Shown piece by piece: positions 3,378 to 31,036 of a stretch of 64,000 nucleotides of DNA. The position numbers were made by a program, and so were the translations under genes. The stretch spans positions 47,971,222 through 48,035,221 of the forward strand of contig CM023540.1 in the NCBI GenBank assembly GCA_013350335.1, in the 5' to 3' direction. The stretch comes from Chimonanthus salicifolius. Taxonomy: Eukaryota > Streptophyta > Magnoliopsida > Laurales > Calycanthaceae. The notes under the pieces are model-generated. The model was not told where the DNA came from, made no database searches, and saw only the letters and a program-made list of their open reading frames with translations. The first letter of the stretch is position 1. Every line of letters begins with the position of its first letter.

Positions 3378-5085
3378 GTGTACCAACGCAGACAATCTCG
3401 GGTACCATCTGCAGCTGACTCCACCCATCCCTCTGCCCGTGCTTCTGACCCACCAGTTTCTGCCTCGTCTAATCTTCCTATTGCGCTTCGCAAAGGTACG
3501 CGCTCTTGTACTAACCATCTCATTGCTCGTTTTGTCTCATATCATGTTGTTTCCCCTTCCTATCATAGTTTTCTCATAGCATTGGACAGTATTAAGATAT
3601 CCAAGAGGATCGACACGGCCTTGAAAGATCCCTCCTGGAAAGCAGCCATGGATGAAGAGTTAGCTACTCTTGAGAAGAACAACATATGGGAGGTGGTCTC
3701 TCGTCCCCCAGGCAAGACTCCAGTTGGCTGCAAATGGGTTTTTGCCTTGAAGCATAATCCAGATGGCTCTCTTGCACTCTATAAGGCACGCCTAGTAGCC
3801 AGAGGCTTCACAAAGACGTATGGAGTTGACTACCAAGACACCTTTTGCCCTGTTGCCAAGATAAACTCTGTGCGCATTTTGCTCTCCCTTGCAACCACTT
3901 ATGCTTGGCCCCTGCACCAGCTGGATGTAAAGAATGCCTTTCTCCATGGAGATCTTCAGGAAGAAGCCTATATGCTTCCCCCTCCGGGATTTGTCAAGCA
4001 ACGGGAACCTCATTCTGCTTGCAGACTCAAGAAGGCTCTTTATGGTCTTAAGCAGTCTCCTCGTGCCTAGTTTGAGAAGTTTAGCAGTGCCTTACTACCT
4101 TATGGCTTCACCCTGCCAATCAGATCATTCAGTCTTTACCTACCGTGTCCGCTCAGTTGTGATGATTTTGGTGGTCTATGTTGATGATATTGTACTCACC
4201 GGTAACAATGATGAAGCCATTTCTTCCTTCAAACAGTATCTTCAACGGACATTTGATATTAAGAATTTTGGGGCCCCTTCGGTACTTTCTTGGAATTGAA
4301 GTTGCTCAGTCCTCTCGTGACCTTTATCTCTCTCAGCGCAAGTATGCCCTGGATCTCCTCAAGGAAGCTGGCTATTCTAGCTGCAAACCTGCGGATACCC
4401 CATTGGATGTCAACACTAAGTAATCTGCTTCTGATGGCACTCTTCTTGACACGCCCAGTTTCTATCAGAAACTTGTTGGTAAACTCATTTATCTGACCAT
4501 CACGAGACCAGACTTATCTTATTTTGTTGGTGTCGTCAGCCAGTTCATGCATGAACCACGGGACACTCACCTTCATGCCGTGTTTCGAATCCTTTGATAT
4601 ATTAAGGCTCATCCCGGCCACGGCTTATTCTATGCACGCCAGCCTACTTAACCAGTTCGCAGTTATTCAGATGCTGATTGGGCCGGCTCTCCAGACGATC
4701 GCCACTCCACTTCTGACTTGGGCTCCCCCTTAGGTGCCTGGCTAAGCAAGAAACAGTCCGTTGTCGCTCGTTCCAATGCTGAGGCTGAATATCGTGCCAT
4801 GGCTAATACTGCTTCTGAATAGTTGTGGTTTCGCCAATTCCTTACTGAATTGGGCTTTGCTCCTGTTGATCCACTCATCATGTTTTGTGACAATCAAACA
4901 GCCATTCACATTGCCTCCAATCAAGTTTTTCATGAGCGGACTAAACACATTGAAGTTGATTGCCACTTTCTTTGACAGCATATCTTAGAAGGGCGAATTT
5001 TTACTCCTCATCTGCAGTCTAAAGATCAGCTGACCGATATCTTCACCAAACAGTTCCCCGAACTCAGCTTGATTCGGTCATGAGA
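3378..5085 (+). pseudogene. copia 1 reverse transcriptase-RNase H region
   Basis: The RT begins near [15 protein letters not shown] (about 3,637) and shows [20 protein letters not shown], [13 protein letters not shown] and [14 protein letters not shown], followed by a TAG where Trp is usual (4,068-4,070). The catalytic YVDD lies at about 4,170 in another frame. RNase H is visible at 4,670-5,000 with ADWAGSPDDRHST and NAEAEYRAMANTA, then stops at about 4,818 and 4,974. Frameshifts and at least four stops make it a pseudogene. Confidence 0.88.
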
Positions 5086-5128: not shown

Positions 5129-5387
5129 TGTTGTGGGACCCATATGTCTGGAGTGGGACCCACATATGTCTAGATACAGTATACATTGAAAGTCAACACA
5201 GTAGATTTGTAACTGATTGTAATTGATTAAATACTTAGGCATATTTCCTTTTTTAGTTCCTTAATTGTATCTCTCTCTTCTATATAAATATTTTATCCTC
5301 TATGAGGAATATATATCAATATAATTCAGAGAATAATTATTCTTCATATCCCTTATTTTTCCTTTATTTTATTATTTAAATCCTACA
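5129..5387 (+). repeat. 3' LTR of copia 1
   Basis: This 259-bp LTR starts TGTTGTGGG and ends CCTACA. Near its start a short segment containing GTGGGACCCA(C)ATATGTCT is repeated. It is the longer of the two LTR copies because the left one is cut by the window start. Confidence 0.92.
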
Positions 5388-7713: not shown

Positions 7714-10700
7714 CTGTGAACATTCATAAGTTAGCCAGAATTTATCAAATGCATTAGTGAGAAATCGAGGCATAATATAATCCTCAGAATCAAGGTTTTG
7801 TATAGTATCATTGAGCTTTTAGTTTGTGACATAATATGGTGTCAAGACCATCAACCTAGCAACCACAAGCTCAATATGATCCAATAACAAATTTTTAACA
7901 TATCCAATAATCTTAAACTCTCGATCAGATATGTACAAATTCAGTATTGGATGGGAATATAGCAATGGTACAGAATCTATATTCCCTGCAGAAAATTGGA
8001 TATTTCAATGACTAATTCTTCAAAACCAGTATATGTTTCAGATATTGCTCATGAACACAGGCAAGCAGATCAATGGTCTGGATCCCCATAACATGTGCCA
8101 CACACACAATGCTCTAACTTGCAGTTCAGAATCTCAGGTAGAGGATCATATTTCTCATTGTTATAATTACATAACCACTGAATATGAAGTCCAGCTACAA
8201 GCGACCAAAGTGAAATGCAAGCAACCAGTGCTTATTGTCTCAAGGTAAGAGCGGATTGTTGCAACCATATGCATTGCAACTTTCAGTTTTATGAGCATCA
8301 GATAGGAACTGAACCCATGGAACATAATTTGCTAAATCCAATAATGAGAACCAACCCTAGATAGATGGGATAAATTGCTTCAATTATGATGATGACAAAA
8401 ACGCCAATAGAGTAGTCTTATACTTCCGACATACTTTCTTTTTGGATCAGTAAGTTTTAGAAAAAAAGGTTATTAAGCAAAACAAATAAATTAAATGAAA
8501 ATCCATCAGTAAACTCTAGAAAAGGTCATGCAAGAGACAAAATGCAACTTATATACTACCATTCATTTATACAAATATATTTCAGAGACCTATCATTTGT
8601 AACAATTAGGTTTACGAAAAGGTTTTAAAAGGAAACCACTCTTTGAAATGGACAATGTATGCCATTAGAATAAAACTAAAACCCCAACAAGATGACAAAA
8701 GAAAAAACATCTCTCCCACAGTTACGTACCAAATAAGAACAGGAGGGCAGATGACAGTGCCCACAGTTAGGTAGAAATGGTACTTACAGGTATCTAGAAC
8801 ATGCAAATCCTTCAGTGGGTTCTTCCCATCTGTACCACCAAACACAAATAGGTTGTTTCCAACAGTGGTGCAACTATGACTATCCCTTGGAGAAGGTGGG
8901 GTTCCCTTAACCATTGGCTTACTCCATGTCTGCTTAGCTGAAATGACCAAAGTAATATCCAACACCATAAGAAAAACTCCAAACTTGCATTCTAATAATT
9001 CTGACAATAATAATGATGATGATGATAAAAGGTTCTCAAAATATAAACAAAGCCAGAACAAGTCATAGACAACTCCAAGTGCATCAAATATATACTAGGT
9101 ACTAAAAATCAAACACAGGTTAACTAAAAGAGATGTAAACCAGGCAGTAAAGAAAGCTAAGTATGAAGCATGCTGATTTGTACACAAAACTAGAAACCAA
9201 AGAGAGAGAAAAGAGAAAATAAAAGCTTGCCAAGGTTAGAGAGATGAGAAATAGGGACTTGGATCATGTGAAATGTATAAGGGATGAAAATCAAAGGGTT
9301 CTAGTCAAAGATAAGGAAATAAGTGATAAATGAGAAAGGTACTTTAAAGATTGATTAAACAAGAAACGCAATAACAGAACACATACTGAAACTAAAGCAA
9401 ATGAAGGCTGGTAAGTTAAAAACAAAAATAGAAGTAAAATCGACTTTAAAAAAAATGAAGAAAAAAATAGGAGCTTTAGGACCAAACAAAATCCCTTTAG
9501 AACTGTGGATCTGATTAGGTAAAAATGGAATTAGATGGCTAATGTGGTTGTTTAACAAAATCTTAGATTCAAAAACAATGCATGGAGAGTGGCATAAAAG
9601 TACAACGGTCCCATTCTATAAGAACAAAGGAGATGTTCAAAATTGTGACAAATATTGAGGCATTAAACTTATGGGCCATACCATAGAACTTTAGGAGAAA
9701 ATAATAGGACAAAGGTAAAGACAAGAATCAAATGTCTCACAGAATCAATTTGAGTTTATGCCAAGCAGTTCAACAAAGGAAACAACTTTTGCACATGAAG
9801 AAGTTTAGGATAAGAGGAAAAATTTACATACAGCTTTTATAAACTTAGAAAAAACTTATGATAGGATGGGCAAGGCAATTAATTTGATAAACTTTGAAAA
9901 AGACATGCACTCCTAATAAGTATATTGAGGTCATATAGGATGTATATGGACAAGAAACAAGTAGACAGCATGTGGGGAGACGGGGAAGTCCCCCACGAAG
10001 GATCAAATTTGAGCCTATATTTGTTTGTCTTTGTGATGGATTAAACAACATCAACTATACAGGATGCAATGTTGCAATTTATTTGTCTTGGAGATGGATT
10101 AAATAACATCAAATATACAGGATGCAATGTTGCAATGTACGCTATGCAAATAATAAACTATTAATTGGAGAAACAAAAAGTCAATTGAATGTGCAAATGG
10201 AATTATGGAGAAAGCCTTGGAAACGAGTGGGTTGACAATTAGTACAGCAAAGACGGAATATGTGGAATGTAACTTGGTGGTCTAGAAAGCATAGAAGAGG
10301 ATCCAGTTAATATTGGGAATGACTTTGTATTGAATGTGCAAATGGAATTATGGAGAAAGCCTTGGAGACGAGTGGGTTGACAATTAGTACAGCAAAGACG
10401 GATTATGTGGAATGTAACTTAGTGGTCAGAAACCATAGAAGAGGATCCAGTTAATATTGGGAATGACTTTTTATCACAATGTGATAAATTTCAAATTTTT
10501 TTTTTAAGACCAAAGTGTCCAAGCCTCTTAGCACCTGACTAATCCTTTGGGCATGTGCAAACCTCCCTATCCACACACACCAGGTAACACTATGGAGAGT
10601 GGCCCTTTTATGTTGAGAGTAACTTCAAACGCAAGACCTCCCGCATCTCAGGGGGTTCTTGACTGCCAAGCCAACCCTCACGGGTTGATAAATTTAAATA

Positions 10701-12956: not shown

Positions 12957-13238
12957 AAATAGATGGCTTCCATCATGTGATGAATGTCGGGAAATTGCCT
13001 CTTGCTTTTTATGTCAATAAGTGTAATTTTTTTTCTTCTCAAGTCTTATTCTAAAAATCTCTTTTTCTATTAAATATTTTTTAAATGAAATTTATTTTAT
13101 TTTTAAGATTTTTGACAAAATAGTAATTGACAAAATCTTTCAACCCGTCAAAATCTAAAATTTGTAAAAAGAAAAACTAAAAAATAAAAATCAAACTCAC
13201 CAAATTGAAGAATATTGATATACCTTGAAAGAAGATTT
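12957..13238. repeat. 282-bp direct repeat D, left copy, flanking the viral insertion
   Basis: It matches 29,010-29,291 along its full 282 bp with no difference that I can see. It does not occur at the internal junction of the two viral units, so it is not part of the viral genome. Without the insert the host would read ...12,956, D, 29,292.... It is best read as a long target-site duplication. The last five bases GATTT are shared with the viral sequence at the junction. Confidence 0.9.
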
Positions 13239-13350
13239 GAATGAAGACACCATTTCTTCAATGCATATCAAGATATTATTATCTAACATTGATGTGACCA
13301 TTTCTTCTACTACTAGCCATATTCCCCCACCAAAAGAGATGAGTCCACTG

Positions 13351-13362
13351 GCTCTGATACCA
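13351..13362 (-). promoter_or_regulatory. tRNA-iMet primer-binding site, viral copy 1
   Basis: The minus strand reads TGGTATCAGAGC and continues CAG, matching the complement of the plant initiator tRNA-Met 3' end over about 15 nt. Caulimovirids start minus-strand DNA synthesis at such a site. Confidence 0.88.
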
Positions 13363-13380
13363 AATTCTGCAGGATCGAAT

Positions 13381-13460
13381 TATTTGATAGGAATCATCTC
13401 AAATCACATCTTCTTTTTCTTATTTGATAGGAATCATCTCAAATCACATCTTCTTTTTCA
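13381..13460. repeat. 40-bp tandem repeat x 2, viral copy 1
   Basis: Two adjacent 40-bp units starting TATTTGATAGGAATCATCTC differ only at the last base. They span the ORF2 stop codon and lie 20 bp from the primer site. The minus strand of each unit carries the purine run GAAAAAGAAGA. Confidence 0.92.
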
Positions 13461-14763
13461 TTAATTCTTTTGCTTTAGCGGAATTCTTTCGGAATAATTC
13501 AGCTAACCGAGATTCCTTTTCGACTTCTTTTTCTTTTCCTTTGTCTTTTGCTGAAGAGTACCAAAACTTTCCACCACGAAGATATTCTGTAACTGAGCCA
13601 TCGGGATTAACATGAGAGTCAGGGTCCCAACGAGGATGGAGATCTTCAAGAGGCACAACTTCATCATCAAGATTTTCATCTGGATCATGATTACTATCCC
13701 AATCATGAATACCAACATTTTTCTTTGGGAGATATTCTTCTAAAATTTGTTTGATCTTTTCTTCAAAATTGACGGAGTCAACAGACATGTCCATCGGTTC
13801 AGGAGATTTTTCTCGAGCAATTTCTTTGGCAATCTTTTTGGCTAAAAGATCAGCCATGAGCGTTTCATTCTCAAAAGACTTTTCTTCAGGAAGAGGAATT
13901 TCTTCTTTAACAGGAGGAGAGATTTGATTCAGAATTCTCTCATAAGAATCATTTTCAATCTTAGACCACCACTTTTGATAAAAAGTCTGATAAAGAGATG
14001 GTAAATTATATAAATCCTTTTTTACTTCAAACTTCCATTGAAAAATATAAGGAATATGAAATTTAGCAAAGAAGCGAAGCATATTGATGGCTTCACATGG
14101 AACCTTTTCTTCAACCTGAGAGAACTTAATAAACAAATATCGAAAATTATCAGGAAGGATTTTCTGAGAAGCACCATAATATGACCACCATGTGAAGAGA
14201 AACCAGGATGGAAAATTGCGATGAATAGGAGTGACATCAGGACTTTCTTCTTTGAATCTGATGAACCAGGAGTGATTATACTGTCGATTTTGTCACATCA
14301 AAGCAAATTTCCAGGCATCAATATAGTCCCAATAATTATAGAACTCAGTCGAATTGTATAATTTGACTGATTTTGTCATATACAAGGGACCATCCCAATC
14401 TTCCTCAGTAAGGATTTTGAGAATAGTGAACTTTGAGTAAGTGATGATACCATTTGCATTTTTGTTGTGGAAGATGAGGACACTTTTCGTCTGATGCAAA
14501 ATATTGAGATACCAATCTCTGGTTTTTCTTTTATCAGGGGAATGATAATGAAGCCCCTTTCCAAAGAGAAAATAAACATTATCTTCAACAGATCTTTCTT
14601 CCATAAGACAATCTGAAGTAACAAGAATTCTGTTACCGGTGTAAAGATATAATTCTGATTGACTTGGGTCTTTTGTTGGAGTAAAACCCTTTTGGCTTTC
14701 TTCTTGATCTGCCAATTTTTCATTCCCTTTTTTCTTCATGAACGGGGAAGAACTACTTGCCAT
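13444..14763 (-). CDS. Pararetrovirus ORF2, copy 1, interrupted by one in-frame TGA
   Basis: ORF2 starts at ATG 14,763 and overlaps the polyprotein end by 11 nt. It reads 156 residues (MASSSSPFMKKKG at the start) to a TGA at 14,293-14,295. The same frame then stays open for a further 282 codons to a stop at 13,444-13,446, with the next ATG at 14,136. Aromatic-rich sequence lies on both sides of the TGA (FYNYWDYIDAW before, FPSWFLFTWW after), and the C-terminal part is acidic then Lys-rich, so this looks like one protein of about 440 residues split by a single stop. Florendovirus-type genomes carry a second ORF of this size whose role I do not know. The TGA is followed by C, a context known to be leaky, but readthrough is not shown. 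The same stop is in copy 2. Confidence 0.8.
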
Positions 14764-17700
14764 TTTGTCGTCCTTGCAGAAATTCTCTAGTAAGAAAGTC
14801 AGGGAGAGAGTTAGCATTTCCATTAATAAATTCAATCTTAAATTCAAACACTGATAAAATGGCTTGCCATCTAGTAAATATTTGCTTAGAGACAAGATTT
14901 TTTACATCTTTTTCCAGAATTTCTTTTGCTGCTTTAGCATCAACTCTGATCAGAAATTCTTTGTTCAATAAATCATGTTGGAACTTTGTCACACAAATAA
15001 CTATGGCAAGAACTTCCTTTTTGATGGTTGAATATTTCTTTTGTGCTTCATTCCATAATCCAGAATTGAATCTTATTAATTCTTCTTTTGAGTCCTTTTG
15101 TTGTAAAAGAATTCCTCCATATCCGACATCAGAGGCATCAGTTTGAACTATTTTGAAAGCTTCTGGGTCAGATAAACATCTACAAGGAAGATTTTTAACT
15201 CTTTCTTTAATCTTTTTTACTGCATTAGTGTGATGGATAGACCATTCCAGAGGATTTTTCTTTAATCTTTCTTGGAGAAGTTTTCTATCTTTTGCCAAAT
15301 CTTGATAGAAAAATCCAACATAATTTAGACATCCAAGAAATCTTTGTAGCATATTTTTATCCTTAATTTCATCTGGAAATTTATCAGCAAATTGAATAAC
15401 TCTATTAGTCGGAGTTATTTTTCTGTCTTGGATTTCAAATCCTAAGAACTTGATTTTCTGCTGAAAGAGATTCATTTTTCTTTTGGATAAAGCCAATCCA
15501 TTTTCTTTTATGACTCTTTTGAAAATATTCAAATGTTTCCAATGTTGTAATACAGATTCTGAAAAGATAAGAATATCATCAATGTAAACAATGGCAAACT
15601 GGGTATAAGACGAGAAGATATTATTCATAATATTCTGAAATTCAGACGGAGCATTTTTCAATCCAAAAGGCATAACATTCCATTCATAATGCCCCATTGG
15701 AACAGTGAATGCAGTTTTATATCTATCTTCTTCTTTTATCTGAATCTGCCAAAATCCTGATTTTAAATCAAATTTTGAGAATATTTTGGCATTGTTTAAT
15801 CTGTTTAGCAAATCCTGAGTATTAGGCAAAGGATACCTAATAGATTGTAAGACTTTGTTCAAAGGTTTATAATTGATTACCAATCTTGGAACTCCTCTTT
15901 CAATTTCAGCAGCCTTTTCGACATAAAATGCCGTACAGCTCCAAGGGGATTTGCTTTTTCTAATTAATCCTTTCTTCAGCAGATCATTGATTTCTTCTTG
16001 ACAGAGTTTCAAATGGGTAGCATCCATTTGAGATGGACGAGCTTTAGTAGGAATATCCTTTTCATTAAAATCTTTTACATATGGTAATCCTACTATGTGT
16101 CTTTTTCTATTCCAAAAGGCTGATGGTAATTCAGAACAGCATTCTTCTTCAATCTGTTTGGTGAATTCTCCTAATTTTGTTTTAAATTCTTTTTTCTCTA
16201 ATTCTTTTGTCATTTGGGCACATTTAATTTCATTTTTTAATCCATTTATGTAATTTTCTCTTGTGGCAATAACCTGATTTATCCTTTGGATTTTTGTCTC
16301 ACAAGGATCATCTATAAAATCAAGATTTACTTCAATTCCTTTGATATTCGTAGAAATTCCTTTTGTTGTTACAGAAAAAGGTTGGATTTGAAGAATAAAT
16401 GGAGATCCAAGGAGTACATCATTAACAATATCTTCTGAAATAATAAAGGGTGAAGTAACACAGACTCCTTTCATGCAAACATGAACATTTGGGATTTTTC
16501 TTTCTATGGAAATAGTCGTTCCATTAGCAGCAGACACAAACTGTTTTGATTCACTAGTAAATTCAATAGGAACAATCCCAAGCCTGATAACATTTAAGTC
16601 AGCACCAGTGTCAATTATGGCATTGACAATCTTCTCAAAGTTTTTTATTTTTATTTTTACCTGAACTCTCCACTGTTGGTAAATACATTTTGTAGGAATT
16701 ACACCAGTAGAGATTTTGCTAATTTCTCCTTTAATTCTTTGGACAAATTTTTCTTCATCATATTTTTCAATAGCACCATCACTTTCTAACCAAGTTAACC
16801 TTTCATCAAGCTCATTTTGTTTTTTGGTTAACTCTATTTTTAATTCTCGAAGTTCTCTCTTTTGATCATTTAATTCTCTTTGTAAATCTGAGAGAGTTAA
16901 GGGTTTATTTATAGTATGAATTTTTTCTGCTCTATTCATGAGGTCAATCATGGAATAGGTTGGTGTATGAAATGTTTCTTTCTCCTTTATCTTTTTTGGA
17001 TAATATGGTGTTTTATTATCATTTTCATTTTCTTCAAAGGAAATTTTTTGTTGTGAACTTTCTCCTTCTTCTCCTCCCCCCAATTTTGAAATCTGATTTA
17101 AAAATTGAACTTTTTTCTCTGGATCAGGTATGTTAGCAATCATTTCTAAAAGTAATTTTTGAGGGGCAGTGAGGACACGAATGTGGATACCAAGATCTTC
17201 ATCAGATGGTATCGACCATTCTCCTTCAGATTCATCTTCATCTGAATGACATGTACATGATTGGAATTGTTTGATGAGCTGAACCTGAGGACTATTTTCT
17301 TCAATGTCAGTTGATGAATCAGATTCATATTCTTCTTCTTCTTCTGAAGAACTTGAATCAGATTGTTCTTTTTCAGTATTTTCGTCATCATTTTTTGTAT
17401 TGATTTTTCTAAGTTTCTTTTTAGAAGGATTTTCTTTTTTAAAACATTTACTTGCATAATGACCCTTTTTTCCGCAATTATAACAAGTCGGAACATTTTC
17501 TTTTATATATTTCTTTTTGAAATATTTTTTGGATTTTCTTTTGAATGGGATGATATCATCGGATTTTCTTCCTTTTTTATATCTTCCGGGTTTATACTTT
17601 CTTATCATTTTATTTCTTCTATCCTGAGTAAATCTAGAACGCGAAAGTTTTCTCTTTGATTCAGGTGTTTGATTTAAACCAAACTGGAAACAAAAATCTC

Positions 17701-20488
17701 CTAATTCTTTATCTCCAGAATATTTTCTCATTTTTTCAGCTTGTTTACTGATCTTTAAATCAGTACAAAGATTCATGCCAACTTTGTTAATTCTTTGTAT
17801 AATTCCTCCGAAAGTCAGCAAACTATAATTAATAGTACCATGCATTTCTTCTCTCAAGGAATTACGCACCTTTTCAGCAAATAAGGGTGGTAATCCTGAA
17901 ATAAATCTTTCTTTCCAAATATCTGAATTACAATCATTCAGTTGGTAGACTTTTGACAAGAATACATCTCTATACCAACGAAATTCTCTTAAATTTCTAC
18001 ATCTCAAGCGATGTAATTGCTGCCTATTTTTCTCCTTAATTAGAGCAATTCCTCCAGTGAATTCATTGAGGATGCATAGAAGCAAGACACTAACACAATC
18101 AGATTGAGTTTCCCAATTATCAGGGACTTGACTAGTACCTGCTTCAAGCTTAACATTTGGATCAACTAAATTTCCTGTGGTTTTGTCTATATAAAGGATT
18201 CTTCCAAATTCATCCATTTTGACAGCACTCTCAATTTCAAGTCTTTGAGCTCCAGTTAATCCATAATTCCACCATCCTCTTAATATTCCATTGAAAGAGG
18301 TGGTTATCATCAGAAAGATATTCCTTGGAGTATTTCCTCTGACTTCACATGCATTACAGTATATTAACATACTGTGAACCATTTGGACAATTTGATATTC
18401 TGTTAATCCATCCAAATTCCACTCATATAAAGAATTTCCTGAATAGGTTAATTCTGAGGTATAAGTGTATGGAGCTTCTTCAAGTTGTAGATCAACAGGG
18501 GTTGGTCTGGGATAATAATTCTTTGTCTCTGGCAATTTTGCCTGAGGATTCCATTTCTTTAGACGATTTATTAATAAATCCTCTGAAGCAGAGACTCTTA
18601 GGATGCTGAATCCTTTTCCTCCCATATTGAGACTTTCCATTCTATTGGATAATTCTTTTTGCATTTCGTCTGTCAATATGAATGGTCCTTCTTGCAGAGT
18701 AATCCCTTTAGGTAATTGTCTGGGAACATAAACTGCATTGGCAGAGCTTTCTTCTAATTTTTCTTTTTTATCTTTACTGAATTCAGGTTTTAATTTGATT
18801 GTTCTTTCTATTCGATCTGTTTGTTCTCCAATGGTTAATAGACACAGATTGGTATAATTATTTTGTTCAATTATTTCCCCAATACCTATACCTATGTCTC
18901 TAGCATTTGGGTCTGATTTTGATTCATAAATAGATGCATTTTTTACAGGCATGGCATAATTCTTGGTTTCTGTATTAGGGACAGAAATATCAAGTTTCTT
19001 CCAAGGTGGATGTGATTTATCAACTTCTTTTCCTTCAGTGTCTTTCCAGGTTCTTGTAGCTTTTCCTATAACTCTTATTTGTTCTGGGCTTTGAGTTTCT
19101 TTTTCTTTGATTTTCCCTTTTTTAAAATATTCCATAAACCAATCAAAGAAAGGTATATTTCTTTCTTCTTCCTCCATTTGGGAATACCATAATTCTCTCA
19201 TTTTATCCTTTTCTTCTGTGTTAAACTTTTTAAAGAACCAATCTTTTAAAGGATGATTTTTCAAATTTTCTCTAAGATATGGTTTATCAATTTGGAATTT
19301 TTTGACAGGTATTTCTTCTGGCTTTTGAATGCTAACCATTCTTATGGCTCCTTGGAGAAAATCACTCTCACTAGGGTTATAAGTTTTTTGTGACGAAGTT
19401 CTTTTATACACGGGGTGTTCGATTCCACTTTCTTTGTTCCTAAAAACTTTTTGATCCATTTCCTCCTTTTCACTACTCCTTTGGTCATCATCCATTTCTT
19501 CTAATTTAAAACTCTTTCTTCCTTCCGTATAACCGGCAAAGCTTCTCCTAGCTTTTTCCATTTTTCTTCTGAAATTGACTTCAACATTACCATTTGGTAA
19601 TTTGACTATACTTTGTAAATCATCTGTGATTTCATTTACTCTTGGGGTGACATCTTCTATTTGCCAATTTCCTGGGAGAACAACTTCTTCCCAGCTGATG
19701 ACTCTTGGGATGAACACATTATTGTTAAAGTTTGTTTCCATCAGAACTGTAGTTTTTTCTTTATCAACCTTATCTCTATAGGCTATCATGGGAAAGACAG
19801 AGATCATGGATTTGTAAAACACACGATAAACTATAGCAAAAGGTTTACTTCTTGGACTCATTTTTAATCCTTTACTTTGAAATCCAATAGTAGCACAATC
19901 AAGAATATCATCATCATGAGCATCAATTGTGATATTGGGAAAGCAGTTAAAATAAGCAGGTCCATGACAGAGACTTGATTCAACCATAGCATAAAGAGAA
20001 TCATCAAATTCATCATGTCTCTGATCTCGCACATAAGCACAGACTGCAACATTTAATCCTAATCGAAACAACGGTTTGATTCCTACCTGAATTAATCCTA
20101 TGTGCAGGTAGTTGTATTTGGTCCTGATTTGTTCAATAATTCTTCTATCAAGGACTTTGATCGTCTGTTTTCCTCTAGAGAGAGAAACAGTTTTTTCAAC
20201 AGTTTTTATGTGATAATCATTTTGCTCTTCAAATGTGCCATTGCTATATATTTCTGTTACAGGCAAGGCTGGCAACTTCCAATTTGATATCGCTTGATCA
20301 AAATTTTCATATATCATTTCTTCTGAATTTTTTGTTTTTTCTGAACTTTCTTTTTCTAAACTATTACGGGTAAAACTAGTTAAAGCAGACTGATAGGATG
20401 AAGAAGACGAATTAGATCTATTAGAAGGATACTGAAATGATTTAAACCAATTCTTAAAAAGTTTTGTTTTTCCCTTAGAATTTTCCAT
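14753..20488 (-). CDS. Pararetrovirus polyprotein, copy 1 (intact, MP-CP-PR-RT-RH)
   Basis: This is an open frame of 1,911 residues. Visible domains in order: a 30K-type movement protein at about 100-300 (HIGLIQVGIKPL at 129 and an ESSL--GP-YFNC-PN block); a basic/acidic linker; a coat-protein region at about 620-1,015 ending in a CCHC knuckle (C1002 to C1015) followed by an acidic Ser/Glu stretch; a coiled-coil-like segment; an aspartic protease with IDTGAD (D1293); a reverse transcriptase with YIDD at 1,635-1,638; and RNase H with QTDAS (D1784). The N-terminus is Ser-rich and the start ATG is the first in frame after the small-ORF region. One continuous polyprotein with MP upstream of CP is the Petuvirus/Florendovirus arrangement of Caulimoviridae. 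The stop overlaps the ORF2 start (ATGGCAAGTAG). Its integrity contrasts with the decayed retrotransposons nearby and suggests a young insertion. Confidence 0.95.
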   Translation of the reverse strand: MENSKGKTKLFKNWFKSFQYPSNRSNSSSSSYQSALTSFTRNSLEKESSEKTKNSEEMIYENFDQAISNWKLPALPVTEIYSNGTFEEQNDYHIKTVEKTVSLSRGKQTIKVLDRRIIEQIRTKYNYLHIGLIQVGIKPLFRLGLNVAVCAYVRDQRHDEFDDSLYAMVESSLCHGPAYFNCFPNITIDAHDDDILDCATIGFQSKGLKMSPRSKPFAIVYRVFYKSMISVFPMIAYRDKVDKEKTTVLMETNFNNNVFIPRVISWEEVVLPGNWQIEDVTPRVNEITDDLQSIVKLPNGNVEVNFRRKMEKARRSFAGYTEGRKSFKLEEMDDDQRSSEKEEMDQKVFRNKESGIEHPVYKRTSSQKTYNPSESDFLQGAIRMVSIQKPEEIPVKKFQIDKPYLRENLKNHPLKDWFFKKFNTEEKDKMRELWYSQMEEEERNIPFFDWFMEYFKKGKIKEKETQSPEQIRVIGKATRTWKDTEGKEVDKSHPPWKKLDISVPNTETKNYAMPVKNASIYESKSDPNARDIGIGIGEIIEQNNYTNLCLLTIGEQTDRIERTIKLKPEFSKDKKEKLEESSANAVYVPRQLPKGITLQEGPFILTDEMQKELSNRMESLNMGGKGFSILRVSASEDLLINRLKKWNPQAKLPETKNYYPRPTPVDLQLEEAPYTYTSELTYSGNSLYEWNLDGLTEYQIVQMVHSMLIYCNACEVRGNTPRNIFLMITTSFNGILRGWWNYGLTGAQRLEIESAVKMDEFGRILYIDKTTGNLVDPNVKLEAGTSQVPDNWETQSDCVSVLLLCILNEFTGGIALIKEKNRQQLHRLRCRNLREFRWYRDVFLSKVYQLNDCNSDIWKERFISGLPPLFAEKVRNSLREEMHGTINYSLLTFGGIIQRINKVGMNLCTDLKISKQAEKMRKYSGDKELGDFCFQFGLNQTPESKRKLSRSRFTQDRRNKMIRKYKPGRYKKGRKSDDIIPFKRKSKKYFKKKYIKENVPTCYNCGKKGHYASKCFKKENPSKKKLRKINTKNDDENTEKEQSDSSSSEEEEEYESDSSTDIEENSPQVQLIKQFQSCTCHSDEDESEGEWSIPSDEDLGIHIRVLTAPQKLLLEMIANIPDPEKKVQFLNQISKLGGGEEGESSQQKISFEENENDNKTPYYPKKIKEKETFHTPTYSMIDLMNRAEKIHTINKPLTLSDLQRELNDQKRELRELKIELTKKQNELDERLTWLESDGAIEKYDEEKFVQRIKGEISKISTGVIPTKCIYQQWRVQVKIKIKNFEKIVNAIIDTGADLNVIRLGIVPIEFTSESKQFVSAANGTTISIERKIPNVHVCMKGVCVTSPFIISEDIVNDVLLGSPFILQIQPFSVTTKGISTNIKGIEVNLDFIDDPCETKIQRINQVIATRENYINGLKNEIKCAQMTKELEKKEFKTKLGEFTKQIEEECCSELPSAFWNRKRHIVGLPYVKDFNEKDIPTKARPSQMDATHLKLCQEEINDLLKKGLIRKSKSPWSCTAFYVEKAAEIERGVPRLVINYKPLNKVLQSIRYPLPNTQDLLNRLNNAKIFSKFDLKSGFWQIQIKEEDRYKTAFTVPMGHYEWNVMPFGLKNAPSEFQNIMNNIFSSYTQFAIVYIDDILIFSESVLQHWKHLNIFKRVIKENGLALSKRKMNLFQQKIKFLGFEIQDRKITPTNRVIQFADKFPDEIKDKNMLQRFLGCLNYVGFFYQDLAKDRKLLQERLKKNPLEWSIHHTNAVKKIKERVKNLPCRCLSDPEAFKIVQTDASDVGYGGILLQQKDSKEELIRFNSGLWNEAQKKYSTIKKEVLAIVICVTKFQHDLLNKEFLIRVDAKAAKEILEKDVKNLVSKQIFTRWQAILSVFEFKIEFINGNANSLPDFLTREFLQGRQNGK

Positions 20489-20714
20489 TTTTGTGGCTCG
20501 TTAGAAACAAGAAGAGTTTTTGTCAACGATTTACTGCCCTTAACGCCTGATCACGGCCTGAAGCGGGACTTACAACGCGACCACACTCTTAGGAAGATGA
20601 ACGAGGCACAGAACTGGAGAATAAGAAGGAAAATAAAAACTCTAAAGAGAATTGGGTAGATAGTTTCAGATCCTGGATAATAAATTTAATTCATCTAAAT
20701 CCCGTTTTTTTTTT
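20489..20714 (-). other. Leader between small ORF b and polyprotein
   Basis: No coding capacity. It contains a 12-A run on the minus strand at about 20,705-20,716 followed by CGGGA, and a pyrimidine-rich stretch. Confidence 0.5.
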
Positions 20715-20951
20715 TTAAATACGAGATAATAATTCTAATTCTTCATTCAATCTATTACAATACTCTCTGATTTGGTTACACAGACGTACTAACATAGATC
20801 TTCTAATAGTTTGGACACGAATAACAAGGTACCCTCCTACAGCTATATTTTCATCAATTTGTCTGATTGCATTTTCTAATCTTCTAAGCTGATGTTCACG
20901 TCGTCTTAGATCACGCAATAGTTCTTCTCTTCTAATAGAAAGAGGTGGCAT
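20715..20951 (-). CDS. Small viral ORF b (78 aa, Arg-rich coiled coil)
   Basis: This 78-residue frame begins MPPLSIRREELL immediately after the stop of ORF a. The pattern RREELLRDLRRREHQLRRLE and a C-terminal NRLNEELELLSRI strongly suggest an amphipathic coiled coil. No Cys/His motif or membrane segment is seen. Its position, 226 nt before the polyprotein ATG, and coupling to ORF a suggest a short polycistronic leader. Function is unknown; virion-associated coiled-coil proteins exist in related genera, which is only an analogy. Confidence 0.52.
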   Translation of the reverse strand: MPPLSIRREELLRDLRRREHQLRRLENAIRQIDENIAVGGYLVIRVQTIRRSMLVRLCNQIREYCNRLNEELELLSRI

Positions 20952-20952
20952 C

Positions 20953-21183
20953 TCAGAAGGCCATAGCTTGTAGTTTTGATTCAGTTCGGAATTTATCTAG
21001 TTGGAAGATAGCATAAGAATGCATTAAGACAACCCTTCTTCTTTCAAATTCAACATGGCGAGGATTATTTCTGTGGGTGCAGATTTGCAGATGTCTCCGT
21101 ATATTGTTTAACAGGAATTCAATTTTTCTTAATATCCGAACATCATCATGGTATCTTTTAAGCAGAGTAAGGCGAATAGACAT
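20953..21183 (-). CDS. Small viral ORF a (76 aa, Arg-rich)
   Basis: The frame opens with ATG at 21,183 and codes for 76 residues starting MSIRLTLLKRYHDD. It is rich in Arg, His and Leu with heptad-like spacing, suggesting a basic helical protein. It ends one base before the ATG of ORF b (TGAGATG), a layout that allows termination-reinitiation. It lies between the TATA-like element and the polyprotein, in copy 1 only because copy 2 lacks this region. I do not recognise a family. Small ORFs precede the polyprotein in badna- and tungroviruses, but similarity is not evident. It may be a real protein or a chance frame in a long leader. Confidence 0.5.
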   Translation of the reverse strand: MSIRLTLLKRYHDDVRILRKIEFLLNNIRRHLQICTHRNNPRHVEFERRRVVLMHSYAIFQLDKFRTESKLQAMAF

Positions 21184-21377
21184 ATTCTAGCAAAAGAAAA
21201 AACATGATTAGATAACTACAAACATATATCATCAAATTTAAACTTAATCACTTACAGAAGATTTGTACAAGACTTTAGACTCTAGCACACTTAAACTTCA
21301 AGCTCTAGCACTCCAACTTCAAACTCACACTTCTCTTTTTTTTTTTTTTTAGATAACTACAAAGGAAAACCTCTGCT

Positions 21378-21387
21378 CCTTATATAG
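21378..21387 (-). promoter_or_regulatory. TATA-like element of the viral promoter
   Basis: The minus strand reads CTATATAAGG, as in caulimovirid promoters, about 195 bp upstream of ORF a. Its position downstream of the primer site is unusual (see findings). Confidence 0.55.
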
Positions 21388-21937
21388 ATGGAGCAAATAC
21401 AGTAAGAGATTCCTCTCATCCGACCATGAGAGGACTTGCAACAAACAAAGGATACAAGCCTCCAAAAGGCATATCAAAAGTTGATGGGCAAGGTACAAAA
21501 GTTGATGGACAAGGTACATGAGTTGGAATATCTTTATGCCATATGGAAAGCAAAAGATAACCATACCCCCCATAACATTATCAACCCATGACACATGGCA
21601 ATAAAACTACATCAACACCAGCACCAACTTTTACAAATGGCAACACAAAAGGCAGCCCCTACTATCTTTGTTTACAAGTGGCAACATGAAAAGGCAGCCC
21701 CTACCAAATATATATTCTCTGATGGATAGAGGACAAATTTTCTTCAAATCAAGCCTTGTCCTTATGCTAGCTTTTTCTTCCAAGCAATGATGACTAGCAA
21801 CTTTTCTTCTCAAGCATCGATTTGAATGAAGACACCATTTCTTCAATGCATATCAAGATATTATTATCTAACATTGATGTGACCATTTCTTCTACTACTA
21901 GCCATATTCCCCCACCAAAAGAGATATGAGTCCACTG

Positions 21938-21949
21938 GCTCTGATACCA
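21938..21949 (-). promoter_or_regulatory. tRNA-iMet primer-binding site, viral copy 2
   Basis: This is the same TGGTATCAGAGCCAG site as in copy 1, 8,587 bp away; the two extra bases over the 8,585-bp period come from a 2-bp AT insertion at about 21,925. Confidence 0.88.
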
Positions 21950-21967
21950 AATTCTGCAGGATCGAAT

Positions 21968-22047
21968 TATTTGATAGGAATCATCTCAAATCACATCTTC
22001 TTTTTCTTATTTGATAGGAATCATCTCAAATCACATCTTCTTTTTCA
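21968..22047. repeat. 40-bp tandem repeat x 2, viral copy 2
   Basis: Identical arrangement to the copy 1 repeat, so the duplication existed before the dimer formed. Confidence 0.92.
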
Positions 22048-23350
22048 TTAATTCTTTTGCTTTAGCGGAATTCTTTCGGAATAATTCAGCTAACCGAGAT
22101 TCCTTTTCGACTTCTTTTTCTTTTCCTTTGTCTTTTGCTGAAGAGTACCAAAACTTTCCACCACGAAGATATTCTGTAACTGAGCCATCGGGATTAACAT
22201 GAGAGTCAGGGTCCCAACGAGGATGGAGATCTTCAAGAGGCACAACTTCATCATCAAGATTTTCATCTGGATCATGATTACTATCCCAATCATGAATACC
22301 AACATTTTTCTTTGGGAGATATTCTTCTAAAATTTGTTTGATCTTTTCTTCAAAATTGACGGAGTCAACAGACATGTCCATCGGTTCAGGAGATTTTTCT
22401 CGAGCAATTTCTTTGGCAATCTTTTTGGCTAAAAGATCAGCCATGAGCGTTTCATTCTCAAAAGGCTTTTCTTCAGGAAGAGGAATTTCTTCTTTAACAG
22501 GAGGAGAGATTTGATTCAGAATTCTCTCATAAGAATCATTTTCAATCTTAGACCACCACTTTTGATAAAAAGTCTGATAAAGAGATGGTAAATTATATAA
22601 ATCCTTTTTTACTTCAAACTTCCATTGAAAAATATAAGGAATATGAAATTTAGCAAAGAAGCGAAGCATATTGATGGCTTCACATGGAACCTTTTCTTCA
22701 ACCTGAGAGAACTTAATAAACAAATATCGAAAATTATCAGGAAGGATTTTCTGAGAAGCACCATAATATGACCACCATGTGAAGAGAAACCAGGATGGAA
22801 AATTGCGATGAATAGGAGTGACATCAGGACTTTCTTCTTTGAATCTGATGAACCAGGAGTGATTATACTGTCGATTTTGTCACATCAAAGCAAATTTCCA
22901 GGCATCAATATAGTCCCAATAATTATAGAACTCAGTCGAATTGTATAATTTGACTGATTTTGTCATATACAAGGGACCATCCCAATCTTCCTCAGTAAGG
23001 ATTTTGAGAATAGTGAACTTTGAGTAAGTGATGATACCATTTGCATTTTTGTTGTGGAAGATGAGGACACTTTTCGTCTGATGCAAAATATTGAGATACC
23101 AATCTCTGGTTTTTCTTTTATCAGGGGAATGATAATGAAGCCCCTTTCCAAAGAGAAAATAAACATTATCTTCAACAGATCTTTCTTCCATAAGACAATC
23201 TGAAGTAACAAGAATTCTGTTACCGGTGTAAAGATATAATTCTGATTGACTTGGGTCTTTTGTTGGAGTAAAACCCTTTTGGCTTTCTTCTTGATCTGCC
23301 AATTTTTCATTCCCTTTTTTCTTCATGAACGGGGAAGAACTACTTGCCAT
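22031..23350 (-). CDS. Pararetrovirus ORF2, copy 2, with the same in-frame TGA
   Basis: It starts at ATG 23,350 overlapping the polyprotein stop and ends at 22,031. The TGA at 22,880-22,882 is at the same codon as in copy 1. The only residue difference I see is Pro for Ser in the EEK(S/P)FENE segment (22,465 against 13,878). Because the copies share the stop, it predates or accompanied dimer formation. Confidence 0.8.
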
Positions 23351-26300
23351 TTTGTCGTCCTTGCAGAAATTCTCTAGTAAGAAAGTCAGGGAGAGAGTTA
23401 GCATTTCCATTAATAAATTCAATCTTAAATTCAAACACTGATAAAATGGCTTGCCATCTAGTAAATATTTGCTTAGAGACAAGATTTTTTACATCTTTTT
23501 CCAGAATTTCTTTTGCTGCTTTAGCATCAACTCTGATCAGAAATTCTTTGTTCAATAAATCATGTTGGAACTTTGTCACACAAATAACTATGGCAAGAAC
23601 TTCCTTTTTGATGGTTGAATATTTCTTTTGTGCTTCATTCCATAATCCAGAATTGAATCTTATTAATTCTTCTTTTGAGTCCTTTTGTTGTAAAAGAATT
23701 CCTCCATATCCGACATCAGAGGCATCAGTTTGAACTATTTTGAAAGCTTCTGGGTCAGATAAACATCTACAAGGAAGATTTTTAACTCTTTCTTTAATCT
23801 TTTTTACTGCATTAGTGTGATGGATAGACCATTCCAGAGGATTTTTCTTTAATCTTTCTTGGAGAAGTTTTCTATCTTTTGCCAAATCTTGATAGAAAAA
23901 TCCAACATAATTTAGACATCCAAGAAATCTTTGTAGCATATTTTTATCCTTAATTTCATCTGGAAATTTATCAGCAAATTGAATAACTCTATTAGTCGGA
24001 GTTATTTTTCTGTCTTGGATTTCAAATCCTAAGAACTTGATTTTCTGCTGAAAGAGATTCATTTTTCTTTTGGATAAAGCCAATCCATTTTCTTTTATGA
24101 CTCTTTTGAAAATATTCAAATGTTTCCAATGTTGTAATACAGATTCTGAAAAGATAAGAATATCATCAATGTAAACAATGGCAAACTGGGTATAAGACGA
24201 GAAGATATTATTCATAATATTCTGAAATTCAGACGGAGCATTTTTCAATCCAAAAGGCATAACATTCCATTCATAATGCCCCATTGGAACAGTGAATGCA
24301 GTTTTATATCTATCTTCTTCTTTTATCTGAATCTGCCAAAATCCTGATTTTAAATCAAATTTTGAGAATATTTTGGCATTGTTTAATCTGTTTAGCAAAT
24401 CCTGAGTATTAGGCAAAGGATACCTAATAGATTGTAAGACTTTGTTCAAAGGTTTATAATTGATTACCAATCTTGGAACTCCTCTTTCAATTTCAGCAGC
24501 CTTTTCGACATAAAATGCCGTACAGCTCCAAGGGGATTTGCTTTTTCTAATTAATCCTTTCTTCAGCAGATCATTGATTTCTTCTTGACAGAGTTTCAAA
24601 TGGGTAGCATCCATTTGAGATGGACGAGCTTTAGTAGGAATATCCTTTTCATTAAAATCTTTTACATATGGTAATCCTACTATGTGTCTTTTTCTATTCC
24701 AAAAGGCTGATGGTAATTCAGAACAGCATTCTTCTTCAATCTGTTTGGTGAATTCTCCTAATTTTGTTTTAAATTCTTTTTTCTCTAATTCTTTTGTCAT
24801 TTGGGCACATTTAATTTCATTTTTTAATCCATTTATGTAATTTTCTCTTGTGGCAATAACCTGATTTATCCTTTGGATTTTTGTCTCACAAGGATCATCT
24901 ATAAAATCAAGATTTACTTCAATTCCTTTGATATTCGTAGAAATTCCTTTTGTTGTTACAGAAAAAGGTTGGATTTGAAGAATAAATGGAGATCCAAGGA
25001 GTACATCATTAACAATATCTTCTGAAATAATAAAGGGTGAAGTAACACAGACTCCTTTCATGCAAACATGAACATTTGGGATTTTTCTTTCTATGGAAAT
25101 AGTCGTTCCATTAGCAGCAGACACAAACTGTTTTGATTCACTAGTAAATTCAATAGGAACAATCCCAAGCCTGATAACATTTAAGTCAGCACCAGTGTCA
25201 ATTATGGCATTGACAATCTTCTCAAAGTTTTTTATTTTTATTTTTACCTGAACTCTCCACTGTTGGTAAATACATTTTGTAGGAATTACACCAGTAGAGA
25301 TTTTGCTAATTTCTCCTTTAATTCTTTGGACAAATTTTTCTTCATCATATTTTTCAATAGCACCATCACTTTCTAACCAAGTTAACCTTTCATCAAGCTC
25401 ATTTTGTTTTTTGGTTAACTCTATTTTTAATTCTCGAAGTTCTCTCTTTTGATCATTTAATTCTCTTTGTAAATCTGAGAGAGTTAAGGGTTTATTTATA
25501 GTATGAATTTTTTCTGCTCTATTCATGAGGTCAATCATGGAATAGGTTGGTGTATGAAATGTTTCTTTCTCCTTTATCTTTTTGGATAATATGGTGTTTT
25601 ATTATCATTTTCATTTTCTTCAAAGGAAATTTTTTGTTGTGAACTTTCTCCTTCTTCTCCTCCCCCCAATTTTGAAATCTGATTTAAAAATTGAACTTTT
25701 TTCTCTGGATCAGGTATGTTAGCAATCATTTCTAAAAGTAATTTTTGAGGGGCAGTGAGGACACGAATGTGGATACCAAGATCTTCATCAGATGGTATCG
25801 ACCATTCTCCTTCAGATTCATCTTCATCTGAATGACATGTACATGATTGGAATTGTTTGATGAGCTGAACCTGAGGACTATTTTCTTCAATGTCAGTTGA
25901 TGAATCAGATTCATATTCTTCTTCTTCTTCTGAAGAACTTGAATCAGATTGTTCTTTTTCAGTATTTTCGTCATCATTTTTTGTATTGATTTTTCTAAGT
26001 TTCTTTTTAGAAGGATTTTCTTTTTTAAAACATTTACTTGCATAATGACCCTTTTTTCCGCAATTATAACAAGTCGGAACATTTTCTTTTATATATTTCT
26101 TTTTGAAATATTTTTTGGATTTTCTTTTGAATGGGATGATATCATCGGATTTTCTTCCTTTTTTATATCTTCCGGGTTTATACTTTCTTATCATTTTATT
26201 TCTTCTATCCTGAGTAAATCTAGAACGCGAAAGTTTTCTCTTTGATTCAGGTGTTTGATTTAAACCAAACTGGAAACAAAAATCTCCTAATTCTTTATCT

Positions 26301-29009
26301 CCAGAATATTTTCTCATTTTTTCAGCTTGTTTACTGATCTTTAAATCAGTACAAAGATTCATGCCAACTTTGTTAATTCTTTGTATAATTCCTCCGAAAG
26401 TCAGCAAACTATAATTAATAGTACCATGCATTTCTTCTCTCAAGGAATTACGCACCTTTTCAGCAAATAAGGGTGGTAATCCTGAAATAAATCTTTCTTT
26501 CCAAATATCTGAATTACAATCATTCAGTTGGTAGACTTTTGACAAGAATACATCTCTATACCAACGAAATTCTCTTAAATTTCTACATCTCAAGCGATGT
26601 AATTGCTGCCTATTTTTCTCCTTAATTAGAGCAATTCCTCCAGTGAATTCATTGAGGATGCATAGAAGCAAGACACTAACACAATCAGATTGAGTTTCCC
26701 AATTATCAGGGACTTGACTAGTACCTGCTTCAAGCTTAACATTTGGATCAACTAAATTTCCTGTGGTTTTGTCTATATAAAGGATTCTTCCAAATTCATC
26801 CATTTTGACAGCACTCTCAATTTCAAGTCTTTGAGCTCCAGTTAATCCATAATTCCACCATCCTCTTAATATTCCATTGAAAGAGGTGGTTATCATCAGA
26901 AAGATATTCCTTGGAGTATTTCCTCTGACTTCACATGCATTACAGTATATTAACATACTGTGAACCATTTGGACAATTTGATATTCTGTTAATCCATCCA
27001 AATTCCACTCATATAAAGAATTTCCTGAATAGGTTAATTCTGAGGTATAAGTGTATGGAGCTTCTTCAAGTTGTAGATCAACAGGGGTTGGTCTGGGATA
27101 ATAATTCTTTGTCTCTGGCAATTTTGCCTGAGGATTCCATTTCTTTAGACGATTTATTAATAAATCCTCTGAAGCAGAGACTCTTAGGATGCTGAATCCT
27201 TTTCCTCCCATATTGAGACTTTCCATTCTATTGGATAATTCTTTTTGCATTTCGTCTGTCAATATGAATGGTCCTTCTTGCAGAGTAATCCCTTTAGGTA
27301 ATTGTCTGGGAACATAAACTGCATTGGCAGAGCTTTCTTCTAATTTTTCTTTTTTATCTTTACTGAATTCAGGTTTTAATTTGATTGTTCTTTCTATTCG
27401 ATCTGTTTGTTCTCCAATGGTTAATAGACACAGATTGGTATAATTATTTTGTTCAATTATTTCCCCAATACCTATACCTATGTCTCTAGCATTTGGGTCT
27501 GATTTTGATTCATAAATAGATGCATTTTTTACAGGCATGGCATAATTCTTGGTTTCTGTATTAGGGACAGAAATATCAAGTTTCTTCCAAGGTGGATGTG
27601 ATTTATCAACTTCTTTTCCTTCAGTGTCTTTCCAGGTTCTTGTAGCTTTTCCTATAACTCTTATTTGTTCTGGGCTTTGAGTTTCTTTTTCTTTGATTTT
27701 CCCTTTTTTAAAATATTCCATAAACCAATCAAAGAAAGGTATATTTCTTTCTTCTTCCTCCATTTGGGAATACCATAATTCTCTCATTTTATCCTTTTCT
27801 TCTGTGTTAAACTTTTTAAAGAACCAATCTTTTAAAGGATGATTTTTCAAATTTTCTCTAAGATATGGTTTATCAATTTGGAATTTTTTGACAGGTATTT
27901 CTTCTGGCTTTTGAATGCTAACCATTCTTATGGCTCCTTGGAGAAAATCACTCTCACTAGGGTTATAAGTTTTTTGTGACGAAGTTCTTTTATACACGGG
28001 GTGTTCGATTCCACTTTCTTTGTTCCTAAAAACTTTTTGATCCATTTCCTCCTTTTCACTACTCCTTTGGTCATCATCCATTTCTTCTAATTTAAAACTC
28101 TTTCTTCCTTCCGTATAACCGGCAAAGCTTCTCCTAGCTTTTTCCATTTTTCTTCTGAAATTGACTTCAACATTACCATTTGGTAATTTGACTATACTTT
28201 GTAAATCATCTGTGATTTCATTTACTCTTGGGGTGACATCTTCTATTTGCCAATTTCCTGGGAGAACAACTTCTTCCCAGCTGATGACTCTTGGGATGAA
28301 CACATTATTGTTAAAGTTTGTTTCCATCAGAACTGTAGTTTTTTCTTTATCAACCTTATCTCTATAGGCTATCATGGGAAAGACAGAGATCATGGATTTG
28401 TAAAACACACGATAAACTATAGCAAAAGGTTTACTTCTTGGACTCATTTTTAATCCTTTACTTTGAAATCCAATAGTAGCACAATCAAGAATATCATCAT
28501 CATGAGCATCAATTGTGATATTGGGAAAGCAGTTAAAATAAGCAGGTCCATGACAGAGACTTGATTCAACCATAGCATAAAGAGAATCATCAAATTCATC
28601 ATGTCTCTGATCTCGCACATAAGCACAGACTGCAACATTTAATCCTAATCGAAACAACGGTTTGATTCCTACCTGAATTAATCCTATGTGCAGGTAGTTG
28701 TATTTGGTCCTGATTTGTTCAATAATTCTTCTATCAAGAACTTTGATCGTCTGTTTTCCTCCAGAGAGAGAAACAGTTTTTTCAACAGTTTTTATGTGAT
28801 AATCATTTTGCTCTTCAAATGTGCCATTGCTATATATTTCTGTTACAGGCAAGGCTGGCAACTTCCAATTTGATATCGCTTGATCAAAATTTTCATATAT
28901 CATTTCTTCTGAATTTTTTGTTTTTTCTGAACTTTCTTTTTCTAAACTATTACGGGTAAAACTAGTTAAAGCAGACTGATAGGATGAAGAAGACGAATTA
29001 GATCTATTA
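23340..29009 (-). pseudogene. Pararetrovirus polyprotein, copy 2 (5'-truncated, one-base frameshift)
   Basis: Nearly identical to the copy 1 polyprotein but broken in two ways. First, it starts at about codon 26 of copy 1 where the viral sequence joins repeat D at 29,009/29,010. An ATG inside D (29,095) happens to read in frame, giving about 29 host-derived residues before the viral part. Second, a T-run of six in copy 1 (16,991-16,996) has five T here (25,579-25,583), so the frame ends at 25,574. It resumes at 25,538, leaving 1,173- and 732-residue pieces. The first piece keeps MP and CP with CCHC; the second keeps protease, YIDD reverse transcriptase and RNase H. One substitution gives Gly for Arg in the SLSRGKQ segment. 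Confidence 0.93.
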
Positions 29010-29291
29010 AAATAGATGGCTTCCATCATGTGATGAATGTCGGGAAATTGCCTCTTGCTTTTTATGTCAATAAGTGTAATTTTTTTTCTTCTCAAGTCTT
29101 ATTCTAAAAATCTCTTTTTCTATTAAATATTTTTTAAATGAAATTTATTTTATTTTTAAGATTTTTGACAAAATAGTAATTGACAAAATCTTTCAACCCG
29201 TCAAAATCTAAAATTTGTAAAAAGAAAAACTAAAAAATAAAAATCAAACTCACCAAATTGAAGAATATTGATATACCTTGAAAGAAGATTT
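29010..29291. repeat. 282-bp direct repeat D, right copy
   Basis: Matches 12,957-13,238 over its full length by eye. It begins AAATAGATGG after the viral ATTA and ends GAAGATTT, then runs on into different host sequence (AAATTTAATAAGG). Confidence 0.9.
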
Positions 29292-30483: not shown

Positions 30484-31036
30484 TGTAATAACCCGTTCCT
30501 TAAGCACAATATTGTCCGCTTTGGGCCCCACGTGGGGCGGCTCGCACGGCTTTGCATTGGGCGTAGCCCACAAGATCAGGCCCAAAAGGCCTTGTGCTAA
30601 AGAGAGGGGAGTACCATCTTATAACCCCACACCCCTTCCACCTCATGGGCGATGTGGGACTTTTTTTTTCCCACACCCCCATGTGGGTGGGGTGTTACAA
30701 TCCACCTCCCTTAAGACCAGAACTGTCCTCGGCTCTATAACGTCACACTGACAAGGGGTCTACACAAGCAACATAACACAGAAGGGTAGAGAGCTCACAC
30801 AGTCCGAGTATTGAATCGTGCTCTGATACCAAATGTAACAACCCGTCCGTTCAGCACAATATTGTCTGCTTTGGGCCCTATGTGGGGTGACTCACACGAT
30901 TTTACATTGGGCCTGGCCCAAAAGACCTTGTGCTAAGGAGAGGGGAGTACCCTCTTATAACCCCACACCCCCTCCACCTCATGGGCGATGTGGGACTTTT
31001 TTTTCCCCCACACCCCCATGTAGGTGGGGTGTTACA
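30484..31036 (-). mobile_element. TRIM-like element 1 (two LTRs, TSD CTTAT)
   Basis: Two LTRs (30,484-30,699 and 30,834-31,036) start TGTAA(T/C)AACCCG and end GTTACA. The internal part is only 134 bp. On the minus strand a perfect TGGTATCAGAGC primer site (30,831-30,820) follows the right-hand LTR after two bases, and a purine-rich AAGGGAGGTGGAT precedes the other LTR. The 5-bp duplication CTTAT flanks the element (30,479-30,483; 31,037-31,041). There is no coding capacity, so it depends on other elements. Confidence 0.9.

Follow-up and report, generated by a model that had tools for sequence, protein, structure and literature searches.

We describe here a pararetroviral insertion in the genome of Chimonanthus salicifolius, assigned to the family Caulimoviridae, which lies between two copies of one 282-bp host segment (D) and may well have entered during the repair of a broken chromosome. 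The DNA analyzed, called the window throughout, is a stretch of 64,000 nucleotides from contig CM023540.1 (C9; positions 47,971,222-48,035,221) of the 852.6-Mb assembly GCA_013350335.1, and all of our results concern this one genome as an assembled sequence. The features on which the argument rests are the following, in window coordinates.

12957..13238, plus strand: left copy of D, 282 bp, identical to the right copy at 282/282 bases and not present in the viral unit (C9:47984178-47984459)
13234..13238, plus strand: GATTT, 5 bp common to host and virus at the left junction
13239..21823, minus strand: first viral unit, complete, 8,585 bp, running unbroken into the second unit
13350..13362, minus strand: presumed tRNA-Met primer-binding-site motif of the first unit, 13-nt form
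14753..20488, minus strand: long open reading frame (ORF) of the first unit, 1,911 aa, with movement protein, coat domain, zinc knuckle, protease, reverse transcriptase and RNase H (Pfam)
21824..29009, minus strand: second viral unit, 7,186 bp, truncated at its right end, where the junction has no host-virus overlap
21937..21949, minus strand: presumed tRNA-Met primer-binding-site motif of the second unit, 13-nt form
23340..29095, minus strand: second-unit counterpart of the long ORF; a frameshift divides it in two, and the right junction truncates it near its start
29010..29291, plus strand: right copy of D (C9:48000231-48000512)

First, the arrangement of host and viral DNA is exact. An earlier note on this sequence (hereafter the original prediction) had reported a perfect 282-bp repeat on both sides of the insert, and pairwise alignment of 12,957-13,238 with 29,010-29,291 bears this out: all 282 bases are alike, the adjacent outer base differs at both ends, and both copies directly meet the viral DNA, which occupies 13,239-29,009 without interruption on the minus strand. 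The same pair was called at 286 nt by repeat finding. As also predicted, D is missing from the internal unit junction, which had been placed at about 21,819 (no D at 21,819-21,823). The word "perfect" stands as a count and carries little information, because only 0.12 differences would be expected in 282 bp at the divergence of the viral units, with a probability of 0.89 of seeing none; the idea that this identity marks great youth was dropped for the same reason.

Several comparisons support the view, likewise taken in the original prediction, that D is host DNA and not viral. The array's own complete viral unit, which served as the viral genome, shares with D a longest word of 13 nt on one strand and 12 on the other, and yields only weak, AT-rich alignments, none of them above 50 bp (best E 0.007, with the low-complexity filter off). 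With a GC content of 23%, D is matched in AT-richness by 0/416 viral windows of 282 bp and by 7/72 windows of the flanks. Moreover, a search of the whole assembly, which passes over very common words, placed D at the two flanks and otherwise found a single 56-bp match of 82% on C3, so that D is unlike a dispersed repeat or a dispersed long terminal repeat (LTR). The same search found no separate empty allele in the assembly. We infer that D was single at the window site before the insertion. Insertion next to TA repeats was considered and dropped, since neither D nor the adjoining DNA (400 bp on the left side, about 400 bp beyond the right copy) contains a TA run of at least three units; a run of five units begins at 29,861, 570 bp beyond the right D. 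Elsewhere in the flanking host DNA we noted local tandem duplications at 10,019-10,136 and 10,184-10,474 (58 and 145 bp, 91-95% matching) and a copia-type element with direct end repeats at 1-226 and 5161-5387 (92-97%) and gag and reverse-transcriptase matches at 1011-1790 and 3378-4070.

Second, the insert is a partial concatemer of a single virus. The original prediction had called it a dimer; two viral units are indeed present, and a complete dimer was dropped because the second is truncated at its right end, so that the total of 8,585 + 7,186 bp amounts to 1.84 units. Over 7,187 aligned columns the two show 99.92% identity, the differences being three substitutions in about 7,184 aligned bases, one 2-bp indel and one 1-bp indel. 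If they were alike at insertion, a substitution rate of 7e-9 per site per year gives an age of about 30,000 years for the window insertion (95% range 6,000-87,000), which is an upper estimate since the units may already have differed beforehand. Three pieces of the 1,911-aa frame matched, above the curated Pfam cut-offs, a movement protein, a caulimovirus coat domain, a zinc knuckle, a retroviral protease, a reverse transcriptase and RNase H, while no integrase family was matched at E <= 0.01 in these pieces or in three other ORFs, one of them small. The best sequence match of the third piece in the PDB was 8r0s, "Enzymatic polyprotein", which we take to be a caulimovirus enzyme. In its 13-nt form the motif that we assume to be the tRNA-Met primer-binding site occurs once per unit and in no other place, and a 12-nt form is also found in host DNA at 30,820 and 59,061; the whole 64-kb window gave no tRNA match and no Rfam match. 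Judged by these sequence features, the insert is assigned at family level as an endogenous member of the Caulimoviridae. Among the viral contigs of IMG/VR we found no relative for two polyprotein pieces and no match for a 24-base D-end pattern.

Two features of the viral leader are recorded here as observations. A perfect tandem repeat of 2 x 40 bp lies just upstream, in the viral sense, of the primer-binding site (13380-13459 and 21967-22046), and a copy at C5:31.0 Mb seems to carry one 40-bp unit. In addition, the leader at about 21431-21780 is divergent between copies, and the matches of other copies often end at its edges.

Third, a host direct duplication that touches both viral junctions was found not only at the window but also at C2:3.15 Mb, where a 2,095-bp direct host repeat (D2) ends exactly at both borders of an insert of 8,638 bp. 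The copies of D2 differ by seven substitutions and no indel (99.7%), which at the same substitution rate corresponds to about 240,000 years (96,000-492,000), compared with about 30,000 years at the window, so that the two insertions differ in age. When D2 was compared with the genome and the best 40 of 1,080 candidates were scored, it was present at full length at the two flanks only; the next best match covered positions 578-2095 at 88%, and the first 390 bp are part of a dispersed repeat of about 77-85% identity. Two copia domain matches bracket the right edge of D2, a Pol beta-barrel within the repeat and a GAG-pre-integrase beyond it; a copia reverse-transcriptase match follows at a greater distance on that side. 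By its two full-length places among those best 40 candidates and by this ending between copia domains, D2 is not a dispersed LTR. A copia paralogue on C8 can be aligned across the right edge and along a further 476 bp of the flank beyond it, and a paralogue on C3 likewise across the left edge, with 95 bp of that flank. Because the paralogues are continuous across each edge, the transitions from left flank to D2 and from D2 to right flank are both ancestral, and the simplest reading is that a single D2 lay at the site before the insertion, as judged from paralogues and not from an orthologous empty site. The proposal in the original prediction that the duplication arose on integration is thus supported indirectly, through the ancestral edges at C2.

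These observations bear on two explanations in which the duplication would not be a product of insertion. Either a tandem D-D was already in place, or a circle carrying both virus and D recombined into D by a single crossover; each would yield D-virus-D, and the host tandem duplications near the insert show that such repeats occur locally. A pre-existing tandem would require the virus to have hit the D-D boundary precisely at each of the two loci, and a circle would require the prior capture of the same host segment, while the C2 paralogues pass once across each edge, with the reservation about orthology given above. We consider this pair of explanations barely plausible. The other possibility is that a false join in the assembly created one of the D copies. 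Two near-identical viral units are a known difficulty for assemblers, and the structure is read from the assembled sequence. Against this, the window contains no N, the sequence is unbroken through both D-virus junctions, the assembly yielded no separate empty allele, and the repeat copies at C2 differ by their seven substitutions, all of which makes an artefact very improbable.

To place these two loci among the remaining copies, we compared the reverse-transcriptase piece with the genome, scoring the best 40 of 1,291 first-look candidates. There are at least 41 matches, 97-100% identical, two of which are the window's own, and most cluster with other matches. For 14 loci or clusters the flanks were taken, the viral parts were tiled against the window, and the non-viral DNA on the left was compared with that on the right, all matches being kept. 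In seven of the 14 flank pairs some hit lay within 20 bp of the viral border on both sides, C2 among them. The stretches at C5:32.0 (410 bp, 92%) and C4 (329 bp, 99.7%) fill the same gap in the viral leader at several places and are read as divergent viral leader, not host; those at C10:67.4, C6, C5:31.39 and C5:31.0 are hits of 65-82% inside repeated DNA, and the C6 locus is a viral cluster. Non-viral DNA exceeding 34 bp at each outer end was present only at C2 and C5:31.0. At C5:31.0 Mb, tandem host repeats on both flanks mean that a duplication can be neither read nor excluded, and this locus was left uncounted. A long flanking duplication is accordingly present at two of the two readable loci, of which one of one is independent evidence, as the window was picked for its duplication. 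Many other viral copies (L010, L014-L019, L024-L029) lie in clusters where broken viral pieces of either orientation are interspersed with repetitive non-viral DNA, and the DNA between viral fragments has no 10-bp period.

The junctions provide a further line of evidence. At the window, D enters the virus through a 5-bp overlap (GATTT) and the virus enters D with an overlap of 0 bp, as the original prediction had noted. Among 200,000 random joins, a null model for the window junctions, an overlap of at least 5 was seen in 1.07% and none in about half. At the right window junction a host run of AAA appears as AAAA, and an alternative register would give a 4-bp ATTA overlap with one slipped A. 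At C2 there is a 4-bp overlap, ATGA, where D2 enters the virus, and one added base at the other end. In both cases it is the junction between the downstream end of the duplicate and the virus that carries the overlap, with two loci being too few for a rule. C2 also contains an inverted fragment of the viral leader (L013:1440-1879) joined to the 3' part of the insert via 11 shared bases, which suggests a template switch or microhomology joining. The viral ends at the window and at C2 are different. A viral end 58 nt upstream of the primer site had seemed to recur as a fixed end and was rejected because the viral match runs past it at C5:31.0 Mb; whether a copy carries one or two of the 40-bp repeat units explains at least part of the impression.

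Insertion by an integrase would duplicate 4-6 bp of the target and leave element ends that are fixed, whereas we found duplications of 282 and 2,095 bp and viral ends that differ. The two cases together point to entry by copying repair of a broken chromosome, in a virus without an integration enzyme of its own. We believe that the caulimovirid was, on balance, probably captured as a concatemer of 1.84 units while a chromosome break was being repaired, the adjacent host segment being copied in the process; the resulting arrangement is known as the Z-pattern. In this sequence of events, the chromosome would break at the right end of D, and the left broken end (...GATTT) would be joined to viral DNA via microhomology of about 5 bp. 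At its other end the viral DNA would then invade an unbroken host template, either the sister chromatid or the homologue, at a point 282 bp upstream of the break; extension from there would run through D until the new strand reached the right broken end and completed D-virus-D. Both the order of these steps and the copying synthesis are what we infer from the final structure, and they follow the model proposed for Merkel cell polyomavirus, in which end joining at a break, invasion of the host by the viral end and synthesis through the break are described under a break-induced-replication scheme (PMC7470373). In favor of such an origin are the exact borders of D-virus-D at the window, the non-viral nature of D, the second case at C2 with its ancestral edges, the 5- and 4-bp overlaps where the duplicates run into virus, the inverted viral fragment at C2, the like architecture of the polyomavirus case and the absence of an integrase match in the pieces and ORFs examined.

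Several points weigh against it. Only one readable locus exists besides the window, which was itself picked for its duplication, and C5:31.0 Mb, the one further locus whose two outer sides are host DNA, gave no readable duplication. The short overlap at one junction is at most suggestive; at the second junction it is absent (window) or replaced by one added base (C2), where invasion by microhomology would predict some overlap. In addition, 282 bp is short for break-induced replication, and the structure is known from the assembled sequence of one genome.

Some of these points would suit a staggered break, in which nicks on opposite strands, 282 bp apart at the window and 2,095 bp apart at C2, would leave overhangs that are filled in while viral DNA is end-joined between them as filler. 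In mouse cells, paired nicks and breaks with overhangs are reported to yield tandem duplications by fill-in followed by end joining (PMC8355091), and rice insertions of 10-1000 bp have been interpreted as duplications from asymmetrical nicks (PMC7407515). The 282 bp of the window fall within that range and the overlap-free second junction suits end joining, whereas the 2,095 bp of C2 exceed it and the inverted viral fragment with its 11-base join suggests template switching. The evidence therefore leans toward copying, in that the length of D2 and the switched viral fragment fit it better than fill-in and the 282 bp fit either, and we regard a staggered break as rather unlikely. A different route to D-virus-D of any length, with end-joined junctions as observed, would be for the virus to bridge the left part of a chromatid or homologue broken at the right end of D and another broken at its left end; as this requires two nearby breaks on two chromatids, of which we found no independent sign, we think it improbable. 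The original prediction had argued for repair in place of a retroviral type of insertion, naming either fill-in of distant nicks or synthesis that copies the target: repair with copying, as opposed to an integrase, has gained support, and our evidence does not separate the two routes.

Z-pattern integration, with joining by microhomology at a break and copying of host DNA by break-induced synthesis, could be how this caulimovirid normally enters chromosomes as solitary copies, and the same might hold for plant pararetroviruses generally, with direct host duplications of 0.3 to several kb as the signature; we put this forward tentatively and regard it as somewhat doubtful. Were it true, such long duplications would have been overlooked because most copies sit in arrays or have decayed. 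The 282- and 2,095-bp duplications represent a readable scar that tells copying repair from simple end joining and offer a test applicable to many young insertions, and the host duplicate supplies a dating pair that is independent of the virus.

Finally, our observations can be set beside known systems. According to the cited parts of a 2023 review, the integration mechanism of endogenous caulimovirids is speculative, with break repair and help from retrotransposons as hypotheses, and tandem arrays and TA repeats have been noted (PMC10377300). Among the titles and abstract openings of the open-access literature we found no paper describing a long direct duplication of the target at a pararetrovirus locus, and endogenous hepadnaviruses of the zebra finch are described, in the passage cited, as not flanked by direct repeats (PMC2946954). 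Florendoviruses and other endogenous caulimovirids resemble our case in their caulimovirid DNA, their tandem units and the preference given to break repair (PMC4241990, PMC10377300), and florendoviruses differ in that the described empty sites show short gains or losses and TA repeats are common, in contrast to a gain of 282 or 2,095 bp and no TA run of at least three units near D (PMC4241990). T-DNA in Arabidopsis is similarly foreign DNA caught at breaks, with microhomology, filler and mention of target-site duplications, although the 160-162 bp duplication described there is inverted (PMC8348815). Duplications from paired nicks or patch-mediated repair share with D the direct duplication of a short host segment in break repair, plants included, but as described they hold no viral concatemer between the copies, and their sizes in rice are 10-1000 bp (PMC8355091, PMC7407515, PMC7464560). 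Closest in form is Merkel cell polyomavirus, for which a partial concatemer (about 1.7 copies in line WaGa) is reported between direct host duplicates; this is a mammalian polyomavirus found in tumours, whose duplications mostly exceed 17 kb although one measures 6 bp, whereas the window and C2 hold a plant pararetrovirus, fixed in the assembled genome, between duplicates of 282 and 2,095 bp (PMC7470373).
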